The notes beneath the pieces are model-generated. The model had not been told where the DNA came from. It worked only from the letters and a program-made list of their open reading frames with translations, and ran no database searches. Below, in pieces: positions 2,348 to 35,167 of a stretch of 64,000 nucleotides of DNA (the first letter of the stretch is position 1; each line of letters starts with the position of its first letter). A program made the position numbers and the translations under genes. The stretch is taken from contig NC_045146.1 of assembly GCF_008831285.2 (NCBI RefSeq), positions 21,095,289-21,159,288 of the forward strand, given 5' to 3'. The stretch comes from Nymphaea colorata. Taxonomy: Eukaryota > Streptophyta > Magnoliopsida > Nymphaeales > Nymphaeaceae.

Positions 2348-2671
2348 TCAGCACTTGATGTAGACACTCTTGAACTGGAATGGCCAGCAGCGATTCCTAT
2401 CGGCCTGAGGCAACGCACGCCCATATCCCTCGCAGTTATAGCCATTGTACACTATCATCACCGAGTCCGCGTCATGCTTCTCGTTATAATCATACTTGTA
2501 TCCACCATTGAATTCCAGGTTGTGACAACCACAAGCATCATACTTCTCAGAACGGCCGCGACACCCTGGCTCCTCATACACCCTCAGGTAGCTGTGGTAT
2601 TTTGCTTCGGCAATGCTCGCGAACATAACCATCGCCACCAGAGCGGCCACCAAAGCTAGAGATCTGGCCAT
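2348..2671 (-). CDS. MiAMP1-like secreted antimicrobial protein, copy 1 (subfamily A)
   Basis: Intronless, 107 residues. A hydrophobic signal peptide (1-23, ending AEA) precedes an 84-residue mature chain with cysteines at 37, 47, 49, 80, 95 and 107. The spacing 10-2-31-15-12 matches MiAMP1 of Macadamia (10-2-26-15-12) apart from one longer loop. MiAMP1 folds as a Greek-key beta barrel with three disulfides and inhibits fungi; the same apoplastic role is inferred here. The start is the ATG in a GCCATGGCC context. An in-frame ATG at 2779 lies right beside the TATA box, ahead of any likely transcription start, so it was not used. Unlike the other eight copies, its signal peptide lacks three residues (AVE or equivalent) before FAS. 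The mature chain is close to neutral, with about 12 K/R against 11 D/E. Confidence 0.93.
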   Translation of the reverse strand: MARSLALVAALVAMVMFASIAEAKYHSYLRVYEEPGCRGRSEKYDACGCHNLEFNGGYKYDYNEKHDADSVMIVYNGYNCEGYGRALPQADRNRCWPFQFKSVYIKC

Positions 2672-2780
2672 GGCGATTACGAAAGCTGAAGAGTGAAGAG
2701 GTATTGAGATCCCTCTGTAACAGGTTTCACAAAGGAATGGAGAACTAAGGCAGCGATGGTAATGTTGCTTCTTGTTCATC

Positions 2781-2788
2781 TATTTATA
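2781..2788 (-). promoter_or_regulatory. TATA box of copy 1
   Basis: The minus strand reads TCTATAAATAGATGAACAAG, with TATAAATA 110 bases before the ATG. The same box and the following GATGAACAAGAAGCA recur before copies 4 and 6 and, less exactly, before the other copies. Confidence 0.75.
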
Positions 2789-2973
2789 GATCAGCGAAAG
2801 CGTGTTAAAGAGATTTTGGATTTTTTTTTTGTTTTTCCCTTTGCCCAATATTGATACCGAGTGCCAAGAAGAGTAGTACGTGTGAATTATTTGCGTTGAA
2901 CATAGAAAAAATGTAATGCAATAAGATATATATTAATGTTAATTCATTATTTTCAGCATGGTTCTCATTTCAA

Positions 2974-2979
2974 GGTCAA
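2974..2979 (-). promoter_or_regulatory. Candidate W-box in the shared upstream block
   Basis: TTGACC lies about 300 bases upstream of copy 1. TTGACT sits at the aligned place before copy 4 (8963-8968, plus strand) and copy 2 (5182-5187, minus strand); copy 5 has lost the core. WRKY factors bind TTGAC(C/T) in many defence promoters. Six bases are weak evidence on their own; conservation within a duplicated block may be simple inheritance. Confidence 0.3.
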
Positions 2980-3600
2980 CAAGTATTTCTTTAGTACATT
3001 TGATCAAGCCTTTCTCTAAGATGGGGAGGCGCATATTGTGTGCATCCTTGAATTTTAGCTCTAGTCAAATATGGTGTGTGGCTTAGGCAGGCGCAGATTG
3101 TGTCCAACCTTGAATTTTAGGTCTAGTCAAATAAGAGGCGTGGCCGTGGGAAGGATGGGGGATCCTTATCCGCTTCATCGTTTCGTACAAGCAAACTGAG
3201 AAGTATGGAATGACGTCAGTTTCCGGCGATCAGTAGGAAATTTTGCCTAGCGTGAGTAGGGACAGTTTGTGTTTTCACCCATTTTTTCCGACTTTTTACC
3301 TAATTTGGCACATTGCCTGTCGACGATGATTATCGGTCAATATGTTTCATTTTCAATGCGTTTTAGTTAGAAAATTTGGTATGGGGAGAAACAAGTCTGA
3401 AAACTTAATCAGATTCAGATTTGGCATGCGCAGTTCTGCCATTGAATCAAAATCCAAGTGTTATCGAATTACGATGCGAAATGAGTTAATTTTCAGCATG
3501 TTCTGATGGAACTGTGAGCCTTTGAATACGATCGATTTAGAAATTAGGAAGAAAGACATAATATGAGGATATCTAGCACGCAATCCCCAGTAATTTCCAA

Positions 3601-4400
3601 CGAAGGATTGGTGAGAGACATGCTCTTTGCTTTTGTACTAAGAAAGAGTAGAAGGCACAACGCAACCATTTTTTTCAACACCAACCCACCACAACAATTT
3701 CTCTTTTGGCAAATTTTTATTCTCAGTGACCATAATTTTAGTTTAAGAAAAAAGACTTACATTTATGAGGACGGGGCAGGACATCTTCCACATTTATGAC
3801 AACCAAGGGAGGTATATATATTTTAGTTGACCCTACGTGTTTATGTATTTTAGATGCTACTGCCCCTTAATCATTTATCTTTTATATATGGCGCCCCTTG
3901 AAATTTTTTGGATGATTGCACCTGCGCCAAAACTTTCTGCCTCCAACCATGGACAAAACCTGTGTCCCATGTCACAGAAAGTTGCAGGCGAAGATTAGAG
4001 GTACGAAAAGAAATGGAAGCAGCGGGCTGCTGGGCACCAACAGTGAAAAATCGGCTCCGGGAGTGCAGTATATATTATCTGTTCAGATATATAACTATTC
4101 ATGGATTGATTGTACCAGTTAGATTTTTTTTTTTTTTTGTACAGAGTAATTATTCTGAACCACAACATTGATTAAAGAGGTGTTCGTCCGGTAGAGTTGT
4201 AAACTTGACAACTGGGGTTAGACTAGTCAGCAATATAGAAAATTACGTTTAACCGCATGGTTAATTAAGTCCAATTCTGCCAAGTAATTAAATCTGATAG
4301 ATGGACAGATACCCTAAAACTCAATTGTCAGGAACGAAACAACTTGGAGGATAAGATGAAACAATTCCACCCAAAATAGGTGTGTTAAAGGCAACGCATC
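3601..4400. other. Spacer, no gene seen
   Basis: Mixed AT-rich spacer with a short poly(T) near 4121. The small overlapping plus-strand frames at 3563-4171 show no family resemblance. From about 4190 onward it merges into the 3' flank of copy 2. Confidence 0.4.
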
Positions 4401-4680
4401 TTGATTTATTCGAACAATATATAAGTAGCACATGCATTTATTTCCGTGGCTGACAAGAAGTACAGATTCTTCTCCCCCACGCATAACATGAACACTTGAT
4501 AACTAAAGAAAACAGGAGCTAAAGAGTCCAGTAGGCCAAGTGACTAAGGGACCCATATCGAAATCCACATGACATGAAGGAGACCCACTTGATATTCCCC
4601 TTCTTTATTGATAAGCCATAGCAGCATCGAGATCATGGCATCAACTTATTTCTAGGGTGGCTCGCTCGCCGGAAAATTAA

Positions 4681-5013
4681 TCAACAGTGGATGTAGACAC
4701 TGTTGTATCGGATTGTCCAGCAACGTTCCCGATCAGCTTGAAGCAACGTACGTCCATAGCCCTGGCAGTTATAGTCCTTGTACAGTGTGACGCTGGACTC
4801 CGGATCATGCTTCTCGTTGTAATCGTATTTGTATCCGCCATCGTACTTGAGGTTGTGACAACCGCAAGCCTCATACTTCTCGGATCGGCCGCGGCACAGT
4901 GGCTGCTCGTACACCCTCAGGTAGCTGTTGTATTTTGCATCGGCAATGCTTGCGAACTGAAAGGCCATAACCATGGCCACCAGGACGGCCACAAGAGCCA
5001 AAGATCTGGCCAT
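4681..5013 (-). CDS. MiAMP1-like secreted antimicrobial protein, copy 2 (subfamily A, divergent)
   Basis: Intronless, 110 residues: signal peptide 1-26 (ends ADA), then a mature chain with all six cysteines at 40, 50, 52, 83, 98 and 110. It keeps the family core CRGRSEKYEACGCHNL and KYDYNEKHD. It is the most altered A copy after copy 5: the Gly before Cys40 is Leu, the usual ALPQ is TLLQ, the segment after Cys98 reads WTIRYNSVYIHC instead of WPFQFKSVYIKC, and the stretch after KHD is PESSVTLYKDYNCQ. A TATA box sits 92 bases upstream and the poly(A) signal about 270 bases downstream. The frame is intact, so a working secreted protein with a changed surface is likely. Confidence 0.93.
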   Translation of the reverse strand: MARSLALVAVLVAMVMAFQFASIADAKYNSYLRVYEQPLCRGRSEKYEACGCHNLKYDGGYKYDYNEKHDPESSVTLYKDYNCQGYGRTLLQADRERCWTIRYNSVYIHC

Positions 5014-5139: not shown

Positions 5140-6420
5140 ATTGTGGATCATGTGATCCTTCAGGATTTCCCTCTCATTTCAAAGTCAAGAAGAATTACTT
5201 TAATACATTTGGCTAACGCTCGCTATAAGTTTGTTGAGCGCACATTGTGTCCCTCCTTGGGTTTTAGCTCTAGTCAAATACGGGTTGTGTGGCCGTGGGA
5301 ATCATACGGTCTCCTTATCACCTTGCCGGTCGTTTCCTACTGGCACATGTGGGCAACTGCCCACACAAGCCCATGAAAAATGTTTGTTTATCTTTTTTTT
5401 TTTTTTTTTTTTTACTCCGTCCCCACTTGAAAGTAGTGACAATTGTTAGTTTCCTGTGGTCTAATTTTCTTAAAGCGCATCTAGAATTGGAGCTGTTTTT
5501 CGCCATTTTTTCCGACCTTAGTTTCCCCCCAGACTGGATGTCGATGATGATCGTATGAATAAATTTGAATGTCAACGCAAATTTTTGGTCAGAATATTTG
5601 GTTTGGAGTTTTGCCACCGACGAATTGAATCAAACTCTAAGAAGGATCGATCCGATTATGACACGATAAAAGTTGGACCGATCGAGATACGTGGAAATGG
5701 TGGACCGTAGGTTAGATGGATCATGAATTTGGTTAAATGAGATCTAACCCAGATTCGACATGGACCAAATAATTACTAGCTACGTGCCAGTTGCATCAGG
5801 ATTCGCTGCCAACTTGAGGAAGCTAAAGATATATATGTTAAATACACATAAGTCATGAGTGATTTCTCAAATTGTAGGCAGTTTCCTCATGTTTTGAGGA
5901 AAATGAAAGGAACTGGGAGCTTTTGAATTCTCAAACAAGGACATGTTGCTTGCAAGCACAATAACTCACCTCAAGCTTTTATTTGACAGTCTGCATAAAA
6001 AATTGTGGCCTTCCAGAAAATCACGAAACTAATTAGTCCCTTTATGAAATTGTGGCCAAATTTGTGTACTGGCAAAGGAGGATACGTTGGGAAGACATCG
6101 CGTTCCCAATAATACACATCGATATTTTCTACACAAGGCCCACCATTCCCGCAGCAATGTCTCTTCCATTAGATAGGGACGAGTTCAAGGGAAACTTGGA
6201 AGCCTTGCAACAGGAATTTGAGCCCTTTTTTATAACCCTTGCACAACCCTTTCGGCAAGAGTTAAGTCTATGAATAGATAAGTTTATATTCGCCAGCGAC
6301 TGACATCAGGCCACGTACCGACGTAGAAATTTTTGGCAGATTAAAACCGGACACTCGATTTTGCTGACCTATAAATATTATATGCACTCATTTGAGCGGA
6401 CTAATCATACGATTTATTTT
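5140..6420 (-). repeat. 5' flank of copy 2, shared with the left window edge
   Basis: The first part (5160-5420) aligns with the upstream block of copies 1 and 4, including GCGCACATTGTGTCC and TTTTAGCTCTAGTCAAATA. The distal part (5630-6270) aligns with 1-1290. It carries a poly(T) run near 5393-5413. A plus-strand frame at 6052-6273 contains a segment, DEFKGNLEALQQEF, whose counterpart near 1110 stays open in the same frame; no known protein fits. Confidence 0.65.
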
Positions 6421-6822
6421 GTTAGATTTTGCCAAGTAAATTAATAATATTCTGATAAGAGTGAACGACATCCGACCTGAAATATTGTGAACCTCAGCAA
6501 CGAAACAAACACGTACGAAAAGGTAAACAATATTCCATGCTATATACGTTAAGGCAACCCATCTTTATTCAACTTAACCAAAACTATAGGTAGTACAACT
6601 ATTTCCATGGCTGACAAGAAGTACATGTACTTCTCCCCAACACATAAAAGTAAACTTAACTAAATTAAACACGATCTCGTGAGTCCAGTAGCCAGTAGGA
6701 GGGGACAAATAGTGAAATGCACATGAAAGAGACCACTTGATCTCCTTCTTTATTAATTAAGCCACATAAACGTCAAGATATGTGGCAATATTTAAATGGG
6801 CGCCTCGCTTATCACCAGAAAA

Positions 6823-7155
6823 TCAGCACTTGATGTAGACACTCTTGAATTGGAATGGCCAGCAGCGATTCCGATCGACTTGAGGCAACGCACGCCCATA
6901 CCCCTCGCAGTTATATCCCATGTACACTACCATCCTCGAGTCTGCGTCATGCTTCTCGTTATAATCATACTTGTATCCACCATTGAATTCCAGGTTGTGA
7001 CAACCACAAGCCTCATACTTCTCAGAACGTCCGCGGCACCCTGGCTTCTCATACACCCTCAGATAGCTGTTGTATTTTGCATCCGCAATGCTCGCGAACT
7101 CGAGGGCCATCACCATTGCCACCAGAGCGGCGATTAAAGCAACAGATCTGGCCAT
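6823..7155 (-). CDS. MiAMP1-like secreted antimicrobial protein, copy 3 (subfamily A)
   Basis: Intronless, 110 residues: signal peptide 1-26 ending ADA, mature chain 27-110, cysteines at 40, 50, 52, 83, 98 and 110. The mature protein differs from copy 4 at only about five positions (for example K/E at 37, R/G at 41 and M/K at 79). The ATG in GCCATGGCC is chosen; the four codons before it begin with TTG, not ATG. A TATA box lies 110 bases upstream and an AATAAA signal (6564-6569) about 255 bases past the stop. The Cys framework, signal peptide and Greek-key-type sequence support a secreted antifungal role like MiAMP1, by family inference only. Confidence 0.93.
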   Translation of the reverse strand: MARSVALIAALVAMVMALEFASIADAKYNSYLRVYEKPGCRGRSEKYEACGCHNLEFNGGYKYDYNEKHDADSRMVVYMGYNCEGYGRALPQVDRNRCWPFQFKSVYIKC

Positions 7156-7289: not shown

Positions 7290-8180
7290 TAGTGGAAGAT
7301 TTGCTTAAACAAGGCGTGTGTATTTGGCAGTCGTTTCCTACTTGTAAACCAGGAAGCACCGAACAACATTTCCTACGAATGGAAAATTTGGCCTACCAGA
7401 TTTTGCTTAAAGCGCACATAGATTTGGGACTTTGTTTTTCTTCACCCACTTTTTCCTACTTTGGCTTTGCCGTAGGGATATCGACCATAAGTTAAACATG
7501 TCCGGTTTCGTCTATGCGTGCAGCCTTATGTTTTGATGAAAATGCATGTGGAGCTGTGAGCTTTTGATTCCGATGGATTTAGGAAGGACGATACAATGCG
7601 AAGACATCTCGTTTGGAAGCACAAGAATTTTTTAGAGCTCAGCTGAATAACTAGTACTGCACATCGGACTGTTAAAGGCTCCTCTTGAAATTTTGCATGA
7701 ATGAGAGGGAATGTAAAACCAACGCAGCCAGATCTTTTCGAAAAGAAAAGCCGTTTTTCTTGACTTTTTCTACTTTTTCTTGACCAAATCATACTAGTTT
7801 TTTTTTTTTCAAATTAAAAAAGCAGCGCCAAGTCAATCCTTTCGAAGGATTGACTTTGTCCCTGAACTCTTAACTGATAAAAAAAGAAAAGAGACATTTC
7901 AATTTCAACGCCTACATTTCACCCATAGTTCAATATAAGAAACTTTGTTATGTGATTTTTTTCAACCGGGGCCACGCATTTATAAAAGCAATCAAATATT
8001 AAAAGTTGGAAGCCAGTTGTTGTTAATTTTAAAAAAGAGAAAACATTAGCTGCATCATTTTTTCCCAACATACTCTCTCATGATCACTAGACTACATTCT
8101 CATCATATAGTAATATTTTCATTTTAGGGTTAATAAGAAATTCACTTCTCCTGCAATGACAGTCTTTGTAATTTCTGGAA
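7290..8180. other. 5' flank of copy 3 and spacer, no gene
   Basis: Pieces match the A-family upstream block, for example the stretch near 7550 (GAGCTGTGAGCTTTTGATTC) against that near 3515, but the GCGCACATTGTGTCC segment seen before other A copies is not evident. The rest is AT-rich spacer with a palindrome, TCCTTTCGAAGGA, near 7839. No coding frame can be supported. Confidence 0.45.
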
Positions 8181-9178
8181 ATTATTGGGCTTGCGTGTGA
8201 GATATCCTCATATTATAGCTATCTTCCCTTTTAAATCGATCGTATTCAAAGGCTCACAGTTCCATCACAACATGAATCTGCTGGTATACGTGAAGACAGC
8301 AGTGCCGATTGTCAAATCAATCACGAGTTATCTGCGTTTGACATATACATATGTCTTTAGCTTTCTCAAGTTGGGAGTAATTAGTAGTGATTTTAGTGGC
8401 ACACAGTAGTTATTTGGTTTATGCAGAATCTGGATTAATTCAGATCCAGAATTAATTTTTTAAATTCAAATCCATATAACTTACGATCCTACATTTACAA
8501 GTAATTCGGTGGAACTCTTTCATGATATCATAATCGGATGACACTTGGAATTTGACTCAATGGCAGAACTGCGTGCCAAGTCTGAGTCGGATTAATCATC
8601 CATATCCTTTCTCTCCTTACCAAATATTCTAACAAAAAATTGGCATTGAAAGTCGAACATATTCACCGATCGTCATCGATAGCCAATGTCGGCTAAAGGG
8701 GTGAAGAAAAACTGCTCCAATTCGGTGTGCGCTTGGCGAAAATATTAAATCACGCTAGGCAAAATTCCCACTGTTCGCAGGAAACTAACGTCGTCCCAGT
8801 ACTTCCTAGTTTGCTTGTAAGTAATGACTGTTGAAGCTGATAAGGAGCCCCCTATCCTTCCAACGGCCACATGTACACCTTATTTGACGAGAGCTAAAAT
8901 ACATGAATGGCGCCTCCCCAATTTAGAATAAGGCCTGATCAAATGTATTAAAGAAATTCTTGTTGACTTTGAAATGAGAACCATGCTGAAAATAATGAAG
9001 TATTAAAATACATACCTTATTGCATTACAAGTTTTATTCAAACAGAACTTCATGGTCAATGCAAATAATTCACACGTACTACATTCGCACTCTGCTTGGT
9101 GCTTGGTATCAATATTGGACAAAAGGGAAAAAAAAAAAAGACAAAAAAAGAATCGACGTTAACACGCTTTTGCTGATC

Positions 9179-9186
9179 TATATATA
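9179..9186 (+). promoter_or_regulatory. TATA box of copy 4
   Basis: TATATATA within GATCTATATATAGATGAACA, 105 bases before the ATG. It is a one-base variant of the family TATAAATA and is followed by the same GATGAACAAGAAGCAGCATT as copy 1. Confidence 0.7.
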
Positions 9187-9290
9187 GATGAACAAGAAGC
9201 AGCATTACCATCGCTGCGTTTGTCCTCCATTCCTTTGTTAAACCTGTTACCTATCGATCTTAATACTTCTGCACTGCCTTCGGAGACGCC

Positions 9291-9623
9291 ATGGCCAAAT
9301 CTGTTGCTTTAGTCGCCGCTTTGGTGGCAATGGTTATGGCCGTCGAGTTTGCAAGCATTGCCGATGCAAAATATAACAGTTATCTGAGAGTGTATGAGGA
9401 GCCAGGGTGCGGCGGCCGTTCTGAGAAGTATGAGGCTTGTGGTTGTCACAATCTGGAGTACAATGGTGGGTACAAATACGATTATAATGAGAAGCATGAT
9501 GCGGACTCGAGGATGATAGTGTACAAGGGCTATAACTGCGAAGGATATGGGCGTGCATTGCCTCAAGTCGATAGGAATCGCTGCTGGCCATTCCAATTCA
9601 AGAGTGTTTACATCAAGTGCTGA
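9291..9623 (+). CDS. MiAMP1-like secreted antimicrobial protein, copy 4 (subfamily A, inverted)
   Basis: Intronless, 110 residues, the only array member on the plus strand. Signal peptide 1-26 (MAKS start, ends ADA); mature chain with cysteines 40, 50, 52, 83, 98 and 110 and the ending FQFKSVYIKC. Copy 4 carries Gly at 41, where most A copies have Arg. The ATG lies in GCCATGGCC. AATAAA signals follow at 9833-9838 and 9857-9862. The inversion brought its promoter and 3' flank along (see the inverted-duplication arms), so it should be controlled like its neighbours. Family membership is firm; antimicrobial activity is inferred. Confidence 0.94.
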   Translation: MAKSVALVAALVAMVMAVEFASIADAKYNSYLRVYEEPGCGGRSEKYEACGCHNLEYNGGYKYDYNEKHDADSRMIVYKGYNCEGYGRALPQVDRNRCWPFQFKSVYIKC

Positions 9624-9832
9624 TTTTCTGATGAACAGCGAGGCGCCCATTTAAGTATTACCATATCATCTTCATGATGATATTGCTTAATTAATAAACA
9701 AGGAGATCAAGTGGATGTCTTTCAATATGAGTCCCTTTGGCACTCCTACCGGACGCATGAGCTTGTGTTTAATTTGGTTAAGTGTATTTTATGTGTTGGG
9801 GAGAAGTATACGTACTTCTTGTCAACCATTGA

Positions 9833-10404: not shown

Positions 10405-12215
10405 AGATTTAAAGTTTGCAAGCATATTCTTATTATTTGTCATATGATCAGTGGCTCCACTATCTAAAATCCCTCTTACCGCATCAGCATGAACAGCCAG
10501 AGACTGAGAAAGGAGTGTGGCGAATTACCTTTATTGTTTGGTTTTGGCTTAGCGTTAACTACTAGATTTGACTTCACCTCGTTCAAAAGTTTAGCCAGCT
10601 CTGCAATAACATTGCCCCTGCTCTCCTTATTTTCCTGGATGGTCCTCATGAAGTTTGATCTGTTTTTGTCCTTGCTGGTCTTCCATATATAGAGATTAGA
10701 ACATCTTTCTTGTAACCTGACTCCTTACAATACGAGCAAATCACCTATGATTTACCTCTATAAGATGTGCTTCTGCTTTCTATGTGAAGAACTGTCTTCT
10801 CGACGGGATTATTTGATTTTGTGTGAAAAGCAAATTTGTTGGTTAGTGCTTGATCTTTAACTTTGAATTATGTGTCGTCTTTCATATATTTTCTACGAGT
10901 TTCTTCTCCGTGAATAATGGAGCACATGTCGTTAAGCGGGGAAGAGATACGTCATAAGGATCTGGCTGCGCACATTGTCGAACTCCTGTTTGAGTCTTGC
11001 TAGCAACTTGAATAGTATATCATCGTCAGCTCGTTACTTCAACATGTCCAGATCAGGAGTTAGAGGGATGTGTTGTGCCTGCTCGTCCCACATAGCCTTC
11101 AACTTGTTGAGATATAGATGAAAGGTTCTATATCTCTTACTCAGTTTGGATATATCGTGTTAAAGCTTATACACCCTTGCTAGGTTCTGACGCTCGCCGT
11201 AGACATTAGCCTGCGATTCCAGAACTCCTTAGCTGAGTCTAAGAACAGGAAGCCCTCGGCGATATTAGGATCCATGGAGTTTAGGAGCCAGGACATGACT
11301 ATTCTGTCATTTGATTCCCAGTCATCGTATTTTGGATCTTCTTTTGCCAAAGCTTTGACTTTGTCGTTGATGTTGCGGAGCTTCGAGTTTATACAAAGGT
11401 ATAGACTTGCAGATTTTTTCCGTACCACATAGTTCGCTCCGTTAAGTGGAGATATCGTGATTTTGACCACCGGATTAGACTCCTTCTATCACAGTCCTGA
11501 TTTTTGGGCTGAGACTTATAACTGCTGAATGAGCGTACATACTTTCTATCATTCTTGCCGTCCTATTAATGTTGACAAGGATCCTTTACGCCGATCAAGT
11601 TATTTGTTGTTTTCTGTCTCAAGGTTCTGATACCATGTTAGGTTTCAGAGAAGCTTGCAAGTTGTAACTGACCACAGAGATGCCGGCTCATGACGACGAG
11701 CGATAGATGAGGGAAAGAGTGAGGTTGAGTAAGGCGCAAGATACATGCCAAGACACTAATGATAGCCTTGTATTTTGTATTCAATTGATATGACCCATAT
11801 ACATTTCTGTTGCATCATATTTGAGTACAGCTCGCACACAGCTATATCACACATGACGCAACAACAGAACTCTCTAGAAACTTTTGTATTGTCAACATTG
11901 ACATGGACCTTTTATGTCGATTTGGTTATCGTTTTCTTCCCTCAAGGCTCTGATACTGTTTTAGGTTTCAACGAAGCTTGTAGTTGAAGCGCAATGATGC
12001 CTGCGCAAGACGACGAGAGATAGACGAGGGAAAGAGTGAGGTTGAGTAATGTGCAAGATACAAAGGAAGGCAATAATATTTGCCTCGTATTTTCTATTCA
12101 ATTGGTATAAACCATATACATTCCTGTTATATTGCACTTGAGTACAACTCTCGCACAGCTATATCACACAATAATAGAACTCCTTAGATACTCTTGTATT
12201 TACTATTGCATCCTT
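10405..12215 (-). mobile_element. Copia-type LTR retrotransposon fossil, 5' part only
   Basis: Read on the minus strand from right to left: LTR-type sequence, a primer-binding site TGGTATCAGAACC (initiator-Met tRNA type, about 11622-11635), then gag. The gag shows the PLNGANY start, the W-S-N-D-R-I-V-M-S-W-L block and the tA.efW block (frame 11180-11470), continuing through a zinc-knuckle region into a protease-type GATDHMTNN motif near 10420-10450. Integrase, reverse transcriptase and the far LTR are not seen. The element is broken, with several interruptions, and looks old. Confidence 0.75.
11571..12215 (-). repeat. Tandem LTR-plus-leader units of the Copia fossil
   Basis: Two direct units with a period of about 323 bp (the CTCAAGG(T/C)TCTGATAC anchor is at 11618 and 11941). 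Each contains a primer-binding-site-like motif and an LTR-like stretch of about 250 bp holding CTATATCACACA and the GGGAAAGAGTGAGGTTGAGTA block. Doubled LTR/leader units of this kind are a known product of LTR recombination. Confidence 0.6.
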
Positions 12216-14229: not shown

Positions 14230-14562
14230 TCAACACTTGATGTAGGCACTCTCATATGTGAAGGCGCTGCAGTTTTTCGTATCAGCTTGAGGCAACACAT
14301 GCCCATGCCCCGTGCAGTTACGGGCCTTGTACACTGTTATGTTCGAGTCCGGATCATGCTTCTCGTTATAATCGTACTTGTATCCGGCATTATACTTGAG
14401 GTTGTGACAGCCACAAGACTCATACTTCTCGGAACGGTTGCGGCACCCTGACGTCTCGTACACCCTCAGATTGCTTTTATGTTTTGCATCGGCAATGCTT
14501 GCGAACTCGACGGCCATAACCATTGCCACCAGAGCGGCGACTAAAGCAACAGATCTGGCCAT
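14230..14562 (-). CDS. MiAMP1-like secreted antimicrobial protein, copy 5 (sequon-rich subfamily A member)
   Basis: Intronless, 110 residues: signal peptide 1-26, six cysteines at the standard positions (40, 50, 52, 83, 98, 110). It is the most divergent A copy: Tyr28 is His, the segment after Cys83 reads TGHGHVLPQADTKNC, and the end is SAFTYESAYIKC. Four N-glycosylation sequons are present (N42-R-S, N74-I-T, N82-C-T, N97-C-S); no other copy has a standard N-X-S/T sequon in its mature chain. Net charge is about +4. The ATG in GCCATGGCC is used; the in-frame codon four positions upstream is TTG. A TATA box lies 92 bases upstream. The frame and disulfide set are intact, so a changed secreted protein is more likely than a pseudogene. 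Confidence 0.92.
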   Translation of the reverse strand: MARSVALVAALVAMVMAVEFASIADAKHKSNLRVYETSGCRNRSEKYESCGCHNLKYNAGYKYDYNEKHDPDSNITVYKARNCTGHGHVLPQADTKNCSAFTYESAYIKC

Positions 14563-22430: not shown

Positions 22431-22439
22431 TCTGTTAGT

Positions 22440-24840: not shown

Positions 24841-25087
24841 GATTTACCACGTCTTTTTTCATTTTTTTCGCTGCAAGCAAGCAGGGGAAGGCCCCATTAT
24901 TTATTGATTCACTTAGCTCGTTGAATTCACAATAGACGCACGAAAAAGCACCATATGCAACCGACAAATGTAATACACGAGAAACAGAAGAAGGAGACGC
25001 ACTTCTCCTTCTTTATTTAGCCATGACCATATCAAGGCCTTTATTCGCACTGTGCCCAGTAAGGCACCCGAAGGATTGACCAGGCGA

Positions 25088-25420
25088 TCAACATTTGATG
25101 TGGACGCTCTTGAAGGGGAACGGCCTGCAGTGATTCTTGTCCTCATGAGGCAACACAAACCCAACTCCATGGCAGTTGGGATGCTTGTACACTGTCATCT
25201 TTGAGTGCTCGTCATGCTTCTCGTTGTAATCATACTTGAACCCGCCACTGTACTTGAGGTTGTGGCAGCCGCAGCTGTTGTACAACTCGGAGCGATGGCG
25301 GCACCCTGCCTCCTCATACACCCTCAGGTAGCTCTTGTACTTTGCATCCGCAATGCTCGCAAATTCAACTACCATAAGCATTCCCACCAGGACTGCGATC
25401 AGACCCAAAGATCTCGCCAT
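25088..25420 (-). CDS. MiAMP1-like secreted antimicrobial protein, copy 7 (subfamily B, His-rich)
   Basis: Intronless, 110 residues. The signal peptide (1-26) is of the B type (MARSLGLIAVLVGML start, ends ADA). Cysteines at 40, 50, 52, 83, 98 and 110 keep the MiAMP1 spacing. Subfamily B marks are CRHRSELYNSCGCHNL, KHDEHSKMTVYKHPNCHG and LPHEDKNHCRPFPFKS. The mature chain has nine histidines (42, 53, 69, 72, 80, 84, 92, 97, 107), against two in most A copies. The CDS differs from copy 9 at only about six bases. The ATG context is GGCATGGCG. Its 5' flank is shared with copy 8, while its 3' flank (25020-25087) is its own. Confidence 0.93.
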   Translation of the reverse strand: MARSLGLIAVLVGMLMVVEFASIADAKYKSYLRVYEEAGCRHRSELYNSCGCHNLKYSGGFKYDYNEKHDEHSKMTVYKHPNCHGVGFVLPHEDKNHCRPFPFKSVHIKC

Positions 25421-25534
25421 GCCTGGTTGATGGTGGAAGATCGAAGAAACTAGCTAAATTGCTTGAGATAAAGGAGTATCTCTCTAGCTGGGTGTTGATG
25501 GCAATCGATGGTACCTACGACCTTCTTCTTCATC

Positions 25535-25542
25535 TATTTATA
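25535..25542 (-). promoter_or_regulatory. TATA box of copy 7
   Basis: TATAAATA on the minus strand within GCTGTATAAATAGATGAAGA, 115 bases before the ATG; the same context is found before copy 8. Confidence 0.75.
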
Positions 25543-26307
25543 CAGCGAGTTCATTACTTAGTCAAATGATACCAGATAGTGGTTGGAACGTCTAAAGCTT
25601 ATACAGCAACGGTGCTAGTGGCGTGAATCGTCATGCAATAAAACAACATTTCATTTATTATTATTTTTATTTTCGACGAGTAGGCCAGTTCACAACATGT
25701 TCAAACTTCAAAGATAGCTGGTTACGGCGTGCTCCCCTGCACAGTCTTAAAAAAATAAAAGGCCAAGTATACTCCTAACCCACTTATATTAAGTTTTGAC
25801 CCATTAAGGCACACAATAACTCGCCATTCTTGGATTTCAGCACTGCTCGTCAATAAGTTGTGACGTGTAGGAAGAATGTCCTTTCTTTGACTTTCAAAAT
25901 GTTTACTACCTGTTTTACCCTTGTAGAAAAAAAATTCTTCTTTATGGACATGGGTATTTTGGTCATTCCATAAAGTGTGCAATTTTTTGATGCACCTCAC
26001 GGTGGATATAACCAGCCAGCTTTAGTAAGAAGTTGGGAGATCGGTACCTCGTTCGCCTTCCTTCATTTTTCCTACAAGATTCTGTCAATCAGAGTCTTAG
26101 GTAACAAGAAAAGATAAAACACAAACCCGATCATAATGTGCCATGCGGAAACAACCACTAAACGAGCTAGAGAGATCGCCTTTTCTCAAGATTCACAAAT
26201 TCATGGCTCAGATCTTTTCCAATTAGACCGTCCAAAAGAAACTTATAATCACGCATAACTCGATGGAATCTTATAGACAGCAATCAGAAGAACTTGATAG
26301 AAAGATC

Positions 26308-26452
26308 ACCTTAGAAAGCAAGAATAAAGGGACGGTGAAAAAGAAGACTCGAGAATGCAAGGATCGAGGGAGAGCGATCACCCTAGAATGCAAGAATCGA
26401 AGGAAGGACGGTGAAAAAGAAGACTGAGAATGCAAGAATCGAGGGAGAGCGA
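26308..26452. repeat. 72-bp tandem doubling inside the copy 7 upstream block
   Basis: Two units starting at ACCTTAG (26308) and ACCCTAG (26380), each holding GGACGGTGAAAAAGAAGACT and a GAATGCAAGAATCGAGGGAG-like stretch. The matching place near copy 8 (about 30940-31015) has a single unit, so this doubling came after the block duplication. Confidence 0.6.
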
Positions 26453-27499
26453 AAGAGGAGAGCACCTGCTGAAGAAAAAAGAACTGAAAGCTACCTGTGG
26501 CCGCCATCCTCCCCATTTCTGGCGAAAAGCAAAAATCTGTTCAAAGATAGAACTAAAAAGACGAGAAGTTAGCTCGGTTTTCAGAATTTTGATTCGTGGG
26601 AAACAAAGACAGGGAATAGTTTAAAAATCTATCAAAAAATCACTCAAAGATCAAAAATTATGAAATTTGTGGGGTAATTTTCACAAAAGAAACTTGAGAC
26701 CAAGAACCAAACCCAAATTTAATTTTATCCTACAAACAAAAAGTCATAAACGACTTTTATAGTTTTGACAAGTTTGATTAAAAGGACCTGTTTTTGTAAA
26801 GAGTTAATACCAAAAGAAATTGTCGTTTGAATCTACAAAAATAAAGGATTTCAAAAAACTAAAAATCAGAAAATTTTTGAATTTTTTTTGGTACTAGAGA
26901 ATAGTGGTTCTCGAATACAACTTTTCCGTAAGAAACTAAGATCCTAAAAAACAGTAAAAATCATGAAAACATCAGAAAGCAATAATAATATGCAAGTTGG
27001 TAAGATCACAAATATTTATACTCTATTATGCTTGCAATCAAGGTCAAGTCCTCAAGTACACATGGTCATAGTTAGCCAACCTGTGACTCAGACTCGGATC
27101 TGCAGATGATCGAGTCACTAGGTCAGTGAGTTGGCTCGACAACTCGGTCGACTTTTAAAATAATCATATTGTACACCATTGCAGCTGAATTGAATCAAGA
27201 CCAAGTTAGGACCGAATCAGGTGCAAGTCAGGCCAACTTTGACTCGTGGCTGGATTTTTTAACGATATGAACTGACTCGGGTGATTTCCCAGCCAACCAA
27301 CAAGTTTGCCAACTATGCACATGACAAAAATGATTAGAAATACAAATGTAAAGTAGTGAAGAAATCAAACTATGTTCTTCCAAGACATATACCTGTCTCT
27401 TCATTGCCCATCAATGAGAAGATCAAGGCAGGAGGAGGTTCTCTCGCTAATCAATGAGAAGATCAAGGCAGCAACCAACTCAGCACAAATATAATTGAT

Positions 27500-27745
27500 T
27501 CCCTTTATCCAAGAGAGAATCATGGAAACAAACGTTGTAATCCTAATGACTCTCTATGTATAAATACTGCAGCTAGAGAAAGGAATAAAAGTATGAAAAA
27601 CAAAACAAGCTCTTTGTTCGTGGATGTAAGTCATCATTAGACCTGAACCACGTTAAAATTGTGTCTTCTTCCTCTTTATTTTCCTTTTTAGCACTTCTCC
27701 CAAGAATCTCCTCACGGTCTGCATGTCCTCAATGTCTAACAGTTG
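27500..27745 (+). mobile_element. Copia-type LTR remnant
   Basis: A TATA-like GTATAAATACTGC near 27558, then GTGGATGTAAGTCATCATTA, GAACCACGTTAAAATTGTGT and CTTCTTCCTCT follow the order seen in the 3' part of many plant Copia LTRs. It ends near GTCTAACAG with a poor primer-binding-site-like follow-on. Only this LTR fragment is recognised, so it is a broken, old copy. Confidence 0.4.
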
Positions 27746-28390
27746 TGAAATCAGATAAATATTTTCCTTTTGTCTCTGATTTCACAAATGTTTTACTTAG
27801 AGTTGTGAAATCAGATAAAATAGTAGATCTTTGTTTTAGCAAGTGAAAAAAAATTAAGTTGTCAAATCTTTATCATTCAAATCTTTATGTTAACGATTAA
27901 CAATGAAAGGGACTTTACTCTAATGGTTTTTCTTCACTAAAGCAAAAAGAATATAATATAAATATCAAACTGATTATCACGGTCTACTATTTTATCATCG
28001 TCCACAAAATATACAGTACTTGAAGTGATTGCGATCACATCACTATGCAAAACAAATGTACAATTAAGAATATTTTCTAGTTCATTAATGCTTATTTAAT
28101 TACTTTACAAATAAAACAGGGATCTTTAAATTCAAATATCAATTTTACAATTTATATTTATAGAACATAAATATTTAAGTTTTTTGTGCGCCGAAAGAAG
28201 AGATGTTCGTTTCATAAAAGTTTGTTATTTGTTAAAAAGATTCACCAGAACACAGCCTCCTTATTAAGCCCAACAGTAACTGGGACCAAAGCCAAGAACA
28301 CGGAAAGGGCTATAGGTTCATCTTTGTCGTTCTAAAAGAGGATTCATTCTTTTAGAATCTAATTAGCTTTACAAAAAAATAAAGCAAAGG
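27746..28390. other. AT-rich spacer, no gene seen
   Basis: It contains a short direct repeat, AGTTGTGAAATCAGATAAA, at about 27741 and 27801. No coding frame is supported. Confidence 0.35.
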
Positions 28391-28995
28391 AACGCTCTTC
28401 TCCACACCCGTGAGACCAGACATGACACATGCAACTGCTCTATATATATATGTGTGTGTGGAAGTTACACCTAATTGGCTATTTATAGATGTATAGCAGC
28501 AGGTTGCCTTGCTCCGTCTTCCGTCTGGTGCACACAGTTTGACCCGAGATTTCTTACAATGGATCGAATGATCATCTACCTTTCTGGGAAGAGGATTCCG
28601 ATTAAACTCAATGGTATTCTAGCCTCCAGTGTTCAATCACCCGATTCGAATTTAGGCTCAATCACATATCAAACTTCGATCGCTAGTTAAATTATCAATG
28701 AAAAAACATAGAAAATATGGTACAACCCACAATATATACAAGAAATCAGTTTTTATTAATACCATAACTGTAGGTAATAGATTTATTTCCATGAAACGTA
28801 GTAGACATGCAGATAGTATGCATCTGCGCAACACATACAAAGACACTTAAAGCTCGAAATGTAATTTGCGAGTTCCACGAGTCCCGTAGAGGGCTCAAGG
28901 GACTCATGAACTGCGCACACGCGACCAAGCAACAAACGAAGGAGACCCACTTGGTCTCTTTCTTTATTTAATTAGCCATATACATGACCAGGCGA
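28390..28995 (-). repeat. 3' flank of copy 8, duplicated after copy 9
   Basis: About 95% identical by eye to 34105-34834, from near GAACGATCATCTCC / GAACGCTCTTCTCC through TTTCTGGGAAGAGGATTCCG, TGGTACAACCCACAATATAT and CACTTAAAGCTCGAAATGTA to the stop codon. A (TA)n(GT)n run at 28441-28458 is much longer at the copy 9 counterpart. Copy 7 lacks this close match. Confidence 0.8.
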
Positions 28996-29328: not shown

Positions 29329-29446
29329 GCCTGGTTGATGGTGGAAGATCGAAGAAACCAGCTAGCTAGCTAGCTTGAGATGAAGGTGTAGCTCGCTAGC
29401 TGGGTGTTGATGGCAATCGATGGTATCTATGAGCTTCTTCTTCATC

Positions 29447-29454
29447 TATTTATA
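29447..29454 (-). promoter_or_regulatory. TATA box of copy 8
   Basis: TATAAATA on the minus strand within GCTGTATAAATAGATGAAGA, 119 bases before the ATG, in the same context as copy 7. Confidence 0.75.
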
Positions 29455-30165
29455 CAGCGAGAGGGTTGATCATGTTTCATCACTTAGTCAATCGATACCA
29501 GATAGTGGTTGGAATGTCTAAAGCATATGCGGCAACGATGCTAGCGGCGTGAATAGTCATGCAATAAAACAACACTTCATTTATGGCCAGTTCACAACAT
29601 GTTCAACGAGAGCTGGTTACGTGCGCACCCTGCACAGTCTTAAAGAAAAGGCCAACTGTAGCTTACTTATATTAGATTGTAGTCTTCTTTTAAGGGTATA
29701 AGGCTATGTCATGTGAATGTAACCTCGTTCCAATGAAAAGGCCAACTGTACTCTTAGAGCCTACTTTTGAGGGTACTTGGCATGCATAAGAGGCTATGCC
29801 ATGTGCATATAGCCACGTTCCATGTTCAAAACTTGTGGCAATTTATGCAAGTGCGCATAATAATTTGTCATTCTTGGCTTTCAGCACTGCTGGTCAATAA
29901 GTTGTGATGTGTCGGAAGGAATGTCCTTTCTTTACTTCCTGTTTTACCTTGGTAGAAAGAGATGTCCTTTTTTATGAACATGGGTATTTTGATCGGGAGT
30001 GTAATTTTTTTTGTCTACCACACGGTGCATATAACTAACTTTACTACCTGTAGGAGATTGGTACCTCATTAGCCATCTTCATCCGCTTTGTTCATCTTTC
30101 CTACATGATTCTCTCAATCAGCCTCCTAGGTAACAAGAAAAAATAAAACACAAGCTCGATCATAA

Positions 30166-30787
30166 AGGAGAGAGAGTTATGTACATTGCTTCATATATAT
30201 ATATATGTAACGAGTGTACGCTAAATGTAGACCCTATTTTCAATATGTAATTTACTTTCATGCTCAAATATCGTATATGCATATGCGTGAGATAACAAAT
30301 AGTTATAAAATAACAAATAAGTATGAGATAATGTTTATGAGATAACAAAAAATTTATGAGATAATGATATAACAAATGGACAGATGTATGAGATAACACC
30401 AAACATGAATATGAAATAATGTTTATGAAATAATAAAATATTTATGAGATAATAAGATAATGGATTAATATATTAGATAACACTAAACATAAATATGAGA
30501 TAATGTTTATGAAATAATAAAATATTTATGAGATGATAAGATCACACTATAAACAAGACAAAAAAACAAAAAAAGTTTTTTTAGCACTTAAAAGGGCATA
30601 TTGGTCATAATAATATGCATATATGGACCGACAAATTTTACCTTTATCGAATCTTCAAATCTTCTGTTTTTTGTTTTCTTTTATCTCTACCAAAAGTTTT
30701 TTTTTTTGTATTAATTATGAGTTTCATTTATCATATTTAAAATAATGCATAAATTACATACACAGAGAAGCAGCATATATAACCAAC
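30166..30787. mobile_element. Unclassified 622-bp insertion with 11-bp target-site duplication
   Basis: CTCGATCATAA stands on both sides (30155-30165 and 30788-30798), and the copy 7 block has a single CCGATCATAA at the matching site, so the empty site is visible in the same window. The insert is AT-rich, has a poly(T)-type run near 30696, and is partly built of 84-bp tandem units. No open frame is present. Weak subterminal inverted similarity (TTATGTACATTGCTTC at 30177-30192 against the reverse of 30767-30782, about 12 of 16) hints at a non-autonomous DNA element; an 11-bp duplication would also suit a retroposon. The class is undecided. Confidence 0.65.
30319..30542. repeat. 84-bp minisatellite inside the insertion
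   Basis: Units start at about 30319, 30407 and 30491. Each holds ATGAGATAATGTTTATGA or close variants, AAAATATTTATGAGATAAT and ATAACAC(C/T)AAACAT. The first is about 88 bp, the second exactly 84 bp, and the third is partial, about 52 bp. Confidence 0.65.
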
Positions 30788-32229
30788 CTCGATCATAAGG
30801 TGCCATGCACAAATAACAAACTAGAGAGAGAGAGAGTCATGGCTCAGATCTTTTCCAATTAGACCATCCAAAAGAAACATATATTAACATATAACTCGAT
30901 GAAAACTATAGACATTGATCGAAACAACCTGACAGAAAGATCACCATAAAATGCAAGAATGGGGAGGGGGATGATGAAAAGGAAGGCTCAGCAATGCAAG
31001 AATCGAGGGGAGAACACCTGCTGAAGAGAACTGAAAGCTTTCCTCCCCATTTCTGGCGGAATGCAAAAATCTGTTTAAAGATAGAACTAGAAAGACGAGA
31101 ACTGAGCTCGGTTTTCAGAATTTTGGTTCGTGATAAACAAAAACAGGGAATAGTTTAAAAATCTATAAAACAACCACTAAAAGATAAAAAATTTTGAAAT
31201 TTTCTGGGCTAATTTTCACAAAAGAAACTTTAGACCAAGAACCAATAAGAACCAAACCCAAATTCAATTTTATCCTTGGAACAAAAAGTCATAAACTACT
31301 TTTTATAGTTTTGACAAGTTTGATTAAAAGGACCTGTTTTTGGAAAGAGCTAATACCAAAAGAAAGTGTTGTTTGAATCTACAAAAAATAAAGGATTTCA
31401 AATAACTAAAAATCAGAAAATTTTGAATAATTTTGGTACTAGAGAATAGTAGTTCTCCAATACAACTTTTACTTATGAAATTAGGATCCTAAAAATCAAT
31501 AAAAATAGTGAAAACATCAGAAAAATATATTAATATGGAAGTTGATAAGAACACAAATATTTTTTACTCTATTATGCTGGCAAGGTGAAGCCCTCAAGCA
31601 CACATGGTCATAGTTGGCAAACCCATGACTCGGACTCGAATCGGCATATGACCAAGTCACTCGATCAACAAATAGACTCGACAATTCGATCGATTTCTAA
31701 AATAACCATATTGTGAATCATTGCAGCTGAATTGAGCGAGTCATGACCGAGTTAGGACTGAAAGAGGGGCATGTCATGCCAACTTTGACTGGTGTCTGAA
31801 TGTTTTAACGATTCAAAGCCAACCAGCGAGTTTGCCAACTACACACATGATAGAAATAACAAAAATGACAAGACAAATGTAAAGTACTTTAGTGAAGAAA
31901 TCAAACTATGTTCTTCTAAGACATACCTGTCTCTTCATTACTCACTCCTCACCAATGCAAATGCAAGAAACGATAGACAAAGGAGTTTTGAACAATATAC
32001 AAGTGACTCTTATGTACACTAACTACTAACTATCTTCTACTCTATTATGATGAAACCTGGCTCTTACTACAAAAAAAAGACCTTCCGGCGAAGTGTGCCT
32101 GGTGAACACAAATATATACCGGTGATTTTAGTAACTGCTGTAGTTTATTCCAGTGTCTCGTGGTATGGATTGTTGATGAAATTAAAAACCCAATTTTCCC
32201 CCCTTTTCCATTCTAATCTTACGATGCGC

Positions 32230-33100
32230 TGAAATCCTCTCGAGTCTTTTTCCCGCGCCCCTTGCTCTCGAAACACTATCGCCACCTGCCGCCGTCTCCT
32301 GTTTCAGGCGTCGGTCCAACACCAGCGAGAGAGAGAGAAGGGCTGCCCTTCTTTTGGTGGCCGATGATCCACGGGCAAGCCCATTCCCCCTCTCTCTCTC
32401 TCTCTCCCCCTTCCATTGTGCGGGTTCACCCTTCCATTGTCATTTTCAGGCTCAACGCTCCAACTCTGGAACTCCTGCAATCGATCGTCGTTTCTGGAGA
32501 CGTCGTCTTCATGGTCGCCACTCGATCTACCCTGAGAACGATGCTTAGGGACGAGATTTCGGTCGCCCTCGAAAACAGCCTCGTCAAAGCCTGCCAAGGA
32601 GAAGCTGTTCGTCCCTAGTTTCTTTATCTGCGCCTTTCCTCTTACTGACGATGCCGATTGCCGAGGTCATCGATTTTTCCTTCTCCTCCTTTTCGCAATC
32701 TTCCTCTCGATCTTTGCCTCTTCCCCTAAGAATGTTGCTAGTTCCTCTTTTTATTTCTTTTGTCTCTATTCTACGTATCTTCGCCGGGGTGCACTGTAAT
32801 CTCTTTCTTGTCTTGCAAGCCACTCTTCAGATATTGTTTCAGAACTGTACTAGTGCCTGCGCCAACAGATGTAAGATTTTAGTGGCTCTCCCCTCAAAAA
32901 TTCATCCCCAGTCTTTCTAGCCGGCCCCTTGAATATATGTGCATGTCTCGGCATCAATTTTGTGTTCATCAAAATACCACCGTCGGTAAGCAAATTGATG
33001 AAGAAAAGTAATATGCAAGGGCAGGGAACGAGGGCTGAATGAGCCTGATCCCCTTTTTTATGTATCAAAATGCCCCATAAACGACATTCACACCCAAAAA
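32230..33100. other. GC-richer island with CT-rich leader-like sequence; no gene assigned
   Basis: The base composition rises sharply here, with CT repeats at 32390-32412 and a plus-strand frame at 32262-32618 that matches no family I know. It could be a first exon or promoter of an unrecognised transcript, or a captured gene fragment. A plus-strand CTACTACAAAAAAAAGACC near 32066 vaguely resembles a CACTA end, but no partner end was found. Confidence 0.25.
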
Positions 33101-34104
33101 GGAAAATTAAAAACGGTGCAGAGTCTCGCCTCTCATGGCGTGCACTTAATTCTGCATTAATTAGCTTCTTTGGAAGAATGAAAGAAAGAAAGAACAGCAG
33201 AAGATAGTGCCCTGGTCTTGCTCCGTCGTTGTTTCTTCTGATTATTATTCCTGTTTAATTTCAGCCTTGACCTGTTTGCACCTTATGAAGACGGGGACGC
33301 GTGAACTTGGCAAATCCCCGAGTAAATCATTGGAGGATTGCAGTGTAAATATTCCACTTATTTGTGAGTTGTGACCCTTCAAATCATACCAATTCAGATG
33401 CCTTACATGTTACAACAAAATTTATTGTTTACTAATGATTCATGACTAAATGCAGGAGATGGATGCGATGAAATAATTCTCGGATTTCATTCTTTTTGAA
33501 AGTTTATATCCTAAATTGCGATTCCAGTTTTATGACAGCGCATTCCTTGCATTCCTCCTACCATTGTTATTGGTCCTAAAGGCAAATTTTGCCAACTGCA
33601 AGAATTTGTTATGTGAATTTGTTTACTGTATATGTCTCCATGTTCTGAATTTGTTCCAGTATGATATATTGATATGTGAATAATAAAGTATATTCTAGTT
33701 TTTTTTTCCTGCTTTTTTTGCGGAAGTATTGGTAGAAAATCGATAACAAGAACTTTGTTTTGGGTAGTTTGTGGAAACTGTTTGTGGTTACGGGTTACTC
33801 TTATTTTCTGTTTTCTTTATTTTAGAAATTTAGTGAACTTTTTTTGTGGTTGTTCCTGAATTTCATCACCGACATACATGAAATTGATACTCATTTTTAC
33901 CTTAATTGCTATTGAAATTTCAAGGCTCATCTGTTGTTTCGATGTTCCAAATTCATGTTTGGCGTGAAATTTTGTTTTAATTGAGCGTCTTCTTATTAGG
34001 CAACCTGTGGTTAGGCAGATCTCTGTCATTTATGCCAGGAACTACATTTAGGTATACTAGAAGATTGAACTCTTGGCCTGCTTGACTTCAATGTTATATT
34101 CAAA
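33101..34104. other. AT-rich spacer, no gene seen
   Basis: T-rich on the plus strand, intron-like in texture, with no supportable coding frame. Confidence 0.35.
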
Positions 34105-34207
34105 GGAACGATCATCTCCGCACATGTGACTTATACCTAATTGGCTAATTATATATGTATATGTGAGACCAGGCATGATACATTGCAACTGCTCCACCAT
34201 TTTCACC

Positions 34208-34257
<50 letters not shown>

Positions 34258-34834
34258 GGATAGGTAAAAATATTTGGAGGAGAGGCAAGGAAGTCATACC
34301 TAATTGGCTGATTATATATGTATAGCATCAGGTTGCTTTGCTGCGTCTTCCGTCTGGTGTACACAGTTTGACCCGAGATTTCTTACGATGGATCTGATGA
34401 TCATCTACCTTTCTGGGAAGAGGATTCCGAATAAACTCAGTAGCACTCTAGCCTCCAGTGTTCAATCACCCGATTTGAATTTAGGCTCAATCACATATCA
34501 AACTTCGATCGCTAATTAAATTATCAATGAAAAAACACAGAAAAATATGGTACAACCCACAATATATAAAAGAAATCAGTTTTTATTAATACCATAACTG
34601 TAGGTAATATATTTATTTCCATGAAACGTAGTAGACATGCAGATAGCATGCATCTGCGCAACACATACAAAGACACTTAAAGCTCGAAATGTAATTTGCG
34701 AGTTCCACGAGTCCCGTAGAGGGTCAAGAGACTCATGAACTGCACACACACGACAAAGCAACAAACGAAGGAGACCAACTTGGTCTCTTTCTTTATTTAA
34801 TTAGCCATATACGACCATATACATGACCAGGCGA
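34105..34834 (-). repeat. 3' flank of copy 9, duplicate of the copy 8 3' flank
   Basis: Counterpart of 28390-28995. The copy 9 version contains the (TA)n(TG)n run at 34208-34254 and a short extra duplication, ACGACCATATACATGACC, just past the stop codon. Confidence 0.8.
34208..34254. repeat. (TA)n(TG)n microsatellite
   Basis: An uninterrupted TA run passes into about fifteen TG dinucleotides. The homologous site near copy 8 (28441-28458) is far shorter. Confidence 0.9.
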
Positions 34835-35167
34835 TCAACATTTGATGTAGACGCTCTTGAAGGGGAACGGCCTGCAGTGATTCTTGTCCTCATGAGGCAA
34901 CACAAACCCAACTCCATGGCAGTTGGGATGCTTGTACACTGTCATCTTTGAGTGCTCGTCATGCTTCTCGTTGTAATCATACTTGAACCCGCCATTGTAC
35001 TTGAGGTTGTGGCAGCCGCAGCTGTTGTACAACTCGGAGCGATGGCGGCACCCTGCCTCCTCATACACCCTCAGGTAGCTCTTGGCCTTTGCATCCGCAA
35101 TGCTCGCAAATTCAACTACCATAAGCATTCCCACCAGGGCTGCGATCAAACCCAAAGATCTCGCCAT
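34835..35167 (-). CDS. MiAMP1-like secreted antimicrobial protein, copy 9 (subfamily B, His-rich, mosaic)
   Basis: Intronless, 110 residues: signal peptide 1-26 (ends ADA), mature chain starting KAKSYLRVYEE, cysteines 40, 50, 52, 83, 98 and 110. Eight histidines are spread over the chain (42, 53, 69, 72, 80, 84, 92, 97); net charge is about +5 without counting them. The CDS is nearly that of copy 7 (about six differences), the 3' flank is that of copy 8, and the 5' flank diverges from both within about ten bases of the ATG. This points to gene conversion or unequal exchange. A TATA box lies 89 bases upstream. Confidence 0.93.
   Translation of the reverse strand: MARSLGLIAALVGMLMVVEFASIADAKAKSYLRVYEEAGCRHRSELYNSCGCHNLKYNGGFKYDYNEKHDEHSKMTVYKHPNCHGVGFVLPHEDKNHCRPFPFKSVYIKC

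Follow-up and report, generated by a model that had tools for sequence, protein, structure and literature searches.

Gene content of the array

A 64,000-nucleotide stretch of the Nymphaea colorata genome (assembly GCF_008831285.2, contig NC_045146.1, positions 21,095,289 to 21,159,288 of the forward strand), here called the window and used as the source of all coordinates, carries a tandem array of nine genes for MiAMP1-type antimicrobial proteins between positions 2348 and 35167. All nine are intact open reading frames of 107–110 codons; g4 lies on the plus strand and the eight others on the minus strand. A previous description of this DNA, made from its letters alone (the sequence-only reading), had reported a nine-gene array with unbroken frames, which we found to be correct; its statement that the genes are intronless holds for the coding part only. 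The genes are as follows (scores in bits refer to the Pfam profile PF09117).

2348–2671, minus strand: g1, MiAMP1 gene of subfamily A; 107 aa, with a 3-residue deletion in the signal peptide; 62.7 bits
4681–5013, minus strand: g2, MiAMP1 gene of subfamily A; 110 aa, 18 residues unique to g2; 63.2 bits
6823–7155, minus strand: g3, MiAMP1 gene of subfamily A; 110 aa; 58.9 bits
9291–9623, plus strand: g4, MiAMP1 gene of subfamily A; 110 aa, the sole inverted copy; 57.9 bits
14230–14562, minus strand: g5, fast-evolving MiAMP1 gene; 21 residues unique to g5; 58.2 bits
18057–18389, minus strand: g6, MiAMP1 gene of subfamily A; 110 aa; 58.6 bits
25088–25420, minus strand: g7, MiAMP1 gene of subfamily B; 110 aa; 62.2 bits
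28996–29328, minus strand: g8, MiAMP1 gene of subfamily B; 110 aa, 5' flank g7-like and 3' flank g9-like; 61.9 bits
34835–35167, minus strand: g9, MiAMP1 gene of subfamily B; 110 aa, coding sequence (CDS) g7-like and 3' flank g8-like; 61.2 bits

The frame of g1 extends upstream to an in-frame ATG at 2779, although the conserved MARS start at 2671 is likely to be the one used. The division into two subfamilies was borne out by the tree, where g7–g9 form a clade with an ultrafast-bootstrap support of 100; the branching order within g1–g6 is weaker (46–92).

Comparison of the nine proteins with the whole window by tblastn (E up to 1) gave 85 matches, 81 of them inside the nine genes. In this search for pseudogene copies across the 64 kb, the four other matches fell at two weak places only, 37889–37927 (13 residues, E 0.84) and 7563–7625, both of which most likely match by chance. 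The second, on the minus strand between g3 and g4, aligns 22 residues (50%, E 0.32–0.49) with the C-terminal portions of the three B proteins and could be a worn gene relic. The array may continue, or may once have continued, past the left edge of the window, and nine may thus be a lower bound, because sequence to the left of g1 matches array spacers in a self-comparison:

141–1212, no strand: sequence left of g1 matching array spacers (141–216 with 5706–5781; 975–1212 with 6057–6277)

To the right of 35.2 kb, the self-comparison revealed no array-like sequence within the window, which contains no N bases.

Family membership and predicted fold

All nine proteins matched the Pfam MiAMP1 profile (PF09117) over its full length (positions 1–76 of 76) with scores of 57.9–63.2 bits, in each case more than 30 bits above the cut-off of 26 bits. 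The only other Pfam match, SRCR on g2, was below its cut-off. Comparisons with the PDB by sequence, structure modelling and Foldseek searches were carried out for g4 only of the nine copies. By sequence, g4 had a single PDB match, the MiAMP1 protein of Macadamia integrifolia (1c01, E 1.7e-9), and the same entry was the top PDB match of its structure model in Foldseek (E 3.1e-4, template modelling score 0.82 by target length, root-mean-square deviation 2.1); betagamma-crystallin domains came next, with E values of 0.006 or weaker. Calcium-binding betagamma-crystallins carry two N/D-N/D-x-x-S/T-S motifs; the likeness of the g4 model to that superfamily is a resemblance of fold only. The best of five models has eight strands and a mean predicted local distance difference test (pLDDT) score of 71.6, and its fold is predicted, with moderate confidence, to be the MiAMP1 Greek-key beta-barrel on the grounds of strand count and fold match, not strand order. 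Given the PF09117 matches and the recovery of 1c01 both by sequence and by structure, the assignment to the MiAMP1 family is correct, as far as a model of moderate quality allows. A search for relatives of g4 in plasmid and viral-contig collections found none, as expected of a plant gene.

Six cysteines are present in all nine proteins with a spacing of 9-1-30-14-11. In the alignment with the 1c01 chain, four of the five gaps are equal and the third (Cys3–Cys4) is five residues shorter in 1c01. Thus, of the earlier claim of six cysteines with MiAMP1 spacing, the cysteines hold throughout, whereas the spacing is near that of MiAMP1 without being identical, since MiAMP1 lacks five residues of the third gap.

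Leaders and upstream regions

Each of the nine proteins starts with a hydrophobic leader of 23–26 residues that ends in A-x-A and is signal-peptide-like by hydropathy and inspection, in agreement with the signal peptide originally proposed for all copies. A TATAWA motif starts 96–126 bases before the ATG of every gene, which leaves 90–120 bases between box and ATG and slightly corrects the distance of 89–119 bases given by the sequence-only reading. The g4 box is TATATA, not TATAAA; upstream of g9, a further TATATA lies at −147. At the density of the window, the chance of finding TATAWA in one 31-base band is 8.5%, and the nine boxes are not independent evidence because the copies are homologous.

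In total, the 1-kb regions upstream of the nine genes hold 22 W-box motifs. Mononucleotide shuffles gave 9.9 ± 3.0, the density at 36–64 kb predicts 11.9, and the corresponding 1-kb regions downstream hold 10. There are none in the 1-kb upstream region of g9 and none in the nearest 500 bases of g3. As g1, g3 and g4 share ancestry and these two regions are devoid of W-boxes, we do not claim an enrichment.

Duplication history

The history of subfamily A is comparatively simple. In g1, g3 and g4 the likeness extends from the coding sequences into the flanks (e.g. 2230–3077 matches 8875–9738 inverted, 81%), and the synonymous divergence (dS) among the three genes is 0.23–0.43, which fits plain duplication with one inversion; g3 and g4 form a 390-nucleotide inverted repeat (90%). 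The g1 and g3 proteins are 91% and 93% identical to g4, respectively; the three B proteins differ from g4 at 27–32% of positions.

Subfamily B is a mosaic, whose parts are listed below.

25077–25430, minus strand: stretch 97.7% identical to 34824–35177; blastn leaves the flanks unaligned, and a putative conversion tract lies inside
34824–35177, minus strand: partner of 25077–25430 in the blastn self-comparison
25431–28995, no strand: spacer between g7 and g8, both ends of which match the ends of the g8–g9 spacer
29339–34834, no strand: spacer between g8 and g9, the duplicate of the g7–g8 spacer and about 1.9 kb longer

At one end, 25431–27405 matches 29339–31939 in patches of 72–85%; at the other, 28460–28995 matches 34289–34834 at 93%, and this match runs on through the gene. 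The 3' flanks of g8 and g9 are 97% identical in the first 200 bases and 95% in the next 300 (94–97% over 500), while the 5' flanks of g7 and g8 are 91% identical in the nearest 150 bases and 86% in the next 350, with weaker patches up to 27405/31939. Global flank identities were read only above about 85%, and lower ones disregarded, because shuffled sequences gave means of 71–72% and maxima of up to 79%. A g8 gene with a g7-like 5' side and a g9-like 3' side, lying between duplicated spacers, bears the signature of unequal crossing-over, but one event would be insufficient since the two spacer ends differ in age (72–91% versus 93–97%).

The coding sequences of g7 and g9 are 98.2% identical, and their blastn match ends 10–11 bases beyond the CDS on each side. 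Within the CDS, 18 sites join g7 with g9 (positions 15–286), four join g8 with g9 (19, 29, 173 and 319) and two join g7 with g8 (82 and 83). At an assumed flank divergence of 0.17, about 13 synonymous differences would be expected in either pair; the g7/g9 pair shows one (Poisson p 4e-5) and the g7/g8 pair five (p 0.013). Because 18 CDS sites join g7 with g9 while the 3' flank follows g8 and g9, the most plausible reading is that g7 and g9 later underwent conversion over most of the CDS, with an end between positions 286 and 319, and the B mosaic as a whole is best read as the outcome of unequal crossing-over together with gene conversion. The shared flanks in A and the mosaic in B between duplicated spacers support the clear duplication history that had been suggested for the array.

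Except for a patch at the core promoter, the 5' flank of g9 is its own sequence. When 300 bases upstream were aligned locally, five of the eight other copies (g1, g4, g6, g7 and g8) matched g9 better than the best of 60 shuffles, the closest partner being g6 (80% over 55 columns, z 10); g2, g3 and g5 did not exceed the best of 60 shuffles in this comparison.

Selection on the array

The dN/dS comparison that had been proposed as a check of the array was carried out and indicates purifying selection: the one-ratio estimate of omega is 0.296, significantly different from 1 (likelihood ratio test 67.6, p 2e-16). Under the M1a site model (the site and branch tests are our own implementation), about two-thirds of the sites have an omega of 0.09 and one-third an omega of 1. 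M2a, which would detect positive selection at sites, fitted no better than M1a, whether on the full set of nine genes, on the six genes of A or on four of A (twice the log-likelihood difference −0.02, 0.07 and 0.23, respectively). Thus, with an overall omega of 0.30 and no positive selection in the site models, the suggestion that the array reflects selection for variety is unsupported.

The 15 branches were also tested singly, on a tree that has weakly supported nodes (46 and 62), with recombining genes and with p values uncorrected for 15 branches; omega was raised on the g5 branch (1.45 versus 0.24 elsewhere, p 1.4e-4) and on that of g7+g9 (3.2, p 0.012) and lowered on the g4 branch (0.04, p 0.002) and on the B stem (0.154, p 0.024). 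None of the 15 was significantly above 1 (g5, p 0.46). Taken jointly, the branches within the B clade have an omega of 0.985 versus 0.261 elsewhere (p 0.007). The array is thus constrained overall, with constraint relaxed or shifting in g5 and within B.

The fast-evolving copy

Gene g5 evolves at about the neutral rate. All of its 21 unique residues are in the mature part of the protein and none in the leader. It carries four N-glycosylation sequons, which are absent from the other eight copies; their locations by position in the g4 model are as follows.

14431–14439, minus strand: sequon N42-R-S, in a loop
14335–14343, minus strand: sequon N74-I-T, at the first residue of a strand
14311–14319, minus strand: sequon N82-C-T, in a three-residue turn
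14266–14274, minus strand: sequon N97-C-S, in a loop

Mutation was simulated from three starting copies, and none of the 4000 runs made for each gave four or more sequons; with invariant columns protected (30000 runs), they arose in 0.05% of runs starting from g6 and in 0.02% starting from g4. Permuting the new residues of g5 among the changed positions, which is the fairer control, gave at least four sequons in 0.7% to 2.5% of cases with four references, so that the excess is only suggestive, and we treat it as a lead because it was noticed post hoc. Gene g5 might encode a glycosylated, newly specialised MiAMP1 that was freed from constraint, gained four sequons while keeping its leader and cysteines, and acquired a different target or stability through a glycan shield, as conversion held subfamily B together; we consider this unlikely.

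Other features of the window

Opposite g1, g3 and g4 there are similar antisense open frames of 112–113 codons (2321–2659 and 6796–7137 on the plus strand, 9309–9650 on the minus strand), most likely a by-product of conserved sense codons. The g4–g5 spacer contains a tandem duplication of ~300 bases (76%; 11572–11890 and 11898–12200) that is unlike the genes, and the g8–g9 spacer contains AT-rich tandem repeats at 30288–30542 with a main unit of 84 bases. Beyond the array, a single 490-codon frame (stop to stop) at 43679–45148 on the plus strand encodes a cation-efflux zinc transporter (PF01545, PF16916), the coding part of which has no visible intron. At 57171–59175 on the minus strand there are exons of a plant basic helix-loop-helix (bHLH) transcription factor; its HLH domain (PF00010) is cut at 30 of 53 positions, and another frame of the gene matches an ACT-like domain (PF22754) slightly below its cut-off. 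These two genes and the MiAMP1 family itself point to nuclear DNA from a flowering plant. The window had no Rfam matches at the gathering threshold and no tRNA genes.

Relation to known MiAMP1 genes

The array proteins share with Macadamia MiAMP1 the same profile (PF09117; 1c01), the fold of the g4 model, the six cysteines and four of the five cysteine gaps, and differ from it in the five extra residues between Cys3 and Cys4, in being mildly basic and in being encoded by at least nine clustered copies. The literature, cited here by PMC number from the excerpts available, bears in two ways on the earlier statement that such proteins are usually few-copy and scattered. The family is found in a lycophyte, conifers and Amborella and 'in low numbers in monocots' (PMC6108113), which supports the statement. 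Against it, the family is expanded across Lemnaceae, with lineage-specific birth and death, and has several genes in taro (PMC9828482), and in Spirodela polyrhiza antimicrobial-peptide genes are tandemly duplicated (PMC13087006, citing An et al. 2019). The duckweed and taro genes, compared by description only, are likewise multi-copy MiAMP1-domain genes subject to lineage-specific birth and death, although the word 'tandem' does not occur in the available text of PMC9828482, whose excerpts say nothing on genomic layout, conversion or sequons; the Spirodela genes are likewise a tandem duplication in a plant, but the excerpt of PMC13087006 leaves their MiAMP1 identity unstated. Given these expansions, a clustered multi-copy MiAMP1 locus is no great surprise, and the array exemplifies, in well-preserved form, a phenomenon that was known in plants before. 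MiAMP1-domain genes were consistently up after Pseudomonas in two duckweeds (PMC9828482), although their orthogroups fell below the criteria for conserved upregulation used in that paper.

With regard to function, a review reports that MiAMP1 inhibits several plant pathogens and likens its barrel to a killer toxin of yeast, an inhibitor of beta-glucan synthesis (PMC4695807); another paper mentions that MiAMP1 proteins permeabilise membranes (PMC7886984). Sp-AMP of Scots pine, a conifer protein compared here by description only, is filed with MiAMP1 as PR-19 in PMC6108113, in whose reference list a title names beta-glucan binding by Sp-AMP. In the literature library searched, we found no paper that joins MiAMP1 with gene conversion. 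PMC8671617 was set aside because it concerns MiAMP-2, a different family.

Origin and maintenance of the array

We think it likely that the locus is a nuclear tandem array in which nine or more functional genes encode secreted proteins of the MiAMP1 type (beta-barrelin, PR-19-like), and that it expanded through unequal crossing-over plus one inversion, has stayed intact under purifying selection, is partly homogenised within B by gene conversion, as its mosaic suggests, and serves mainly dose. Each gene would be expressed from its own TATA promoter as a precursor of 107–110 residues, whose signal peptide would be cut after A-x-A to release into the apoplast an 84-residue, mildly basic, six-cysteine Greek-key beta-barrel, presumably with the three disulfides of the family. 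By analogy with MiAMP1 and pine Sp-AMP, the mature protein would most likely bind microbial walls or membranes. Because the copies are alike and partly homogenised, a larger dose is their simplest use; dose is probably the main effect, with g5 drifting or specialising. Selection for dose, as originally suggested, is compatible with the purifying selection and conversion seen here.

Several observations weigh against parts of this account. The g4 model was built on nine close sequences, and the remaining four models had pLDDT values of 36–42. The proteins are only mildly basic (net charge +1 to +5, pI 7.7–8.9), which weakens the case for a purely charge-driven action on membranes. Three of the sites that join g8 with g9 (19, 29 and 173) sit among the g7/g9 sites, so that there is no single clean tract. 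Finally, since omega is near 1 for g5 and for the B branches, not every copy is clearly constrained.

Of the other explanations, the one that fares best is dose alone, with redundant copies maintained by conversion and purifying selection as a single high-output product and g5 heading for loss. The near-identical coding sequences of g7 and g9 (98.2%), the similarity of the g1 and g3 proteins to g4 and an omega of g5 that is indistinguishable from 1 would all fit; however, g5 retains its frame, six cysteines, TATA box and a leader without any unique residue, the divergence of the B proteins from g4 is substantial and the B stem is strongly constrained (omega 0.154), so we regard this explanation as possible but doubtful. 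Copies could also have been kept by diversifying selection for variants against different microbes, as in an arms race; the unique residues and raised omega of g5, one of 15 branches, the joint omega of the B clade and the suggestion that selection may favour diversification of the duckweed copies (PMC9828482) point that way, but M2a did not improve on M1a with nine, six or four genes, no branch is significantly above 1 and the overall omega is 0.30, which makes such an arms race improbable. It is very improbable that allelic copies or chimeric joins in the assembly inflate the array: the identity of g7 and g9 might be taken as a sign of this, but the spacings differ, as do the flanks of g7, g8 and g9, the window has no N, and 33 of the 36 gene pairs have dS values of 0.23–1.41, the three exceptions being the B pairs. 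That the nine proteins belong to another cysteine-rich family, as happened with the pothos peptide EaF82, which initially matched MiAMP1 (E 0.094) and has since been classed as RALF-like (PMC10252199), can practically be dismissed, given that all nine pass PF09117, that SRCR on g2 is sub-threshold, that 1c01 is the sole PDB sequence match of g4 and that they have six cysteines against four in EaF82.

Within 33 kb, the array presents a compact duplication history, with its two groups, a single inversion, unequal crossing-over, a probable coding conversion tract and one fast copy. The family is a little-studied antimicrobial one, and copies expressed apart would show whether plants multiply such genes for amount or for range. 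If g5 is indeed a glycosylated, specialised member, the array would be a natural test of dose versus diversification in one antimicrobial family.

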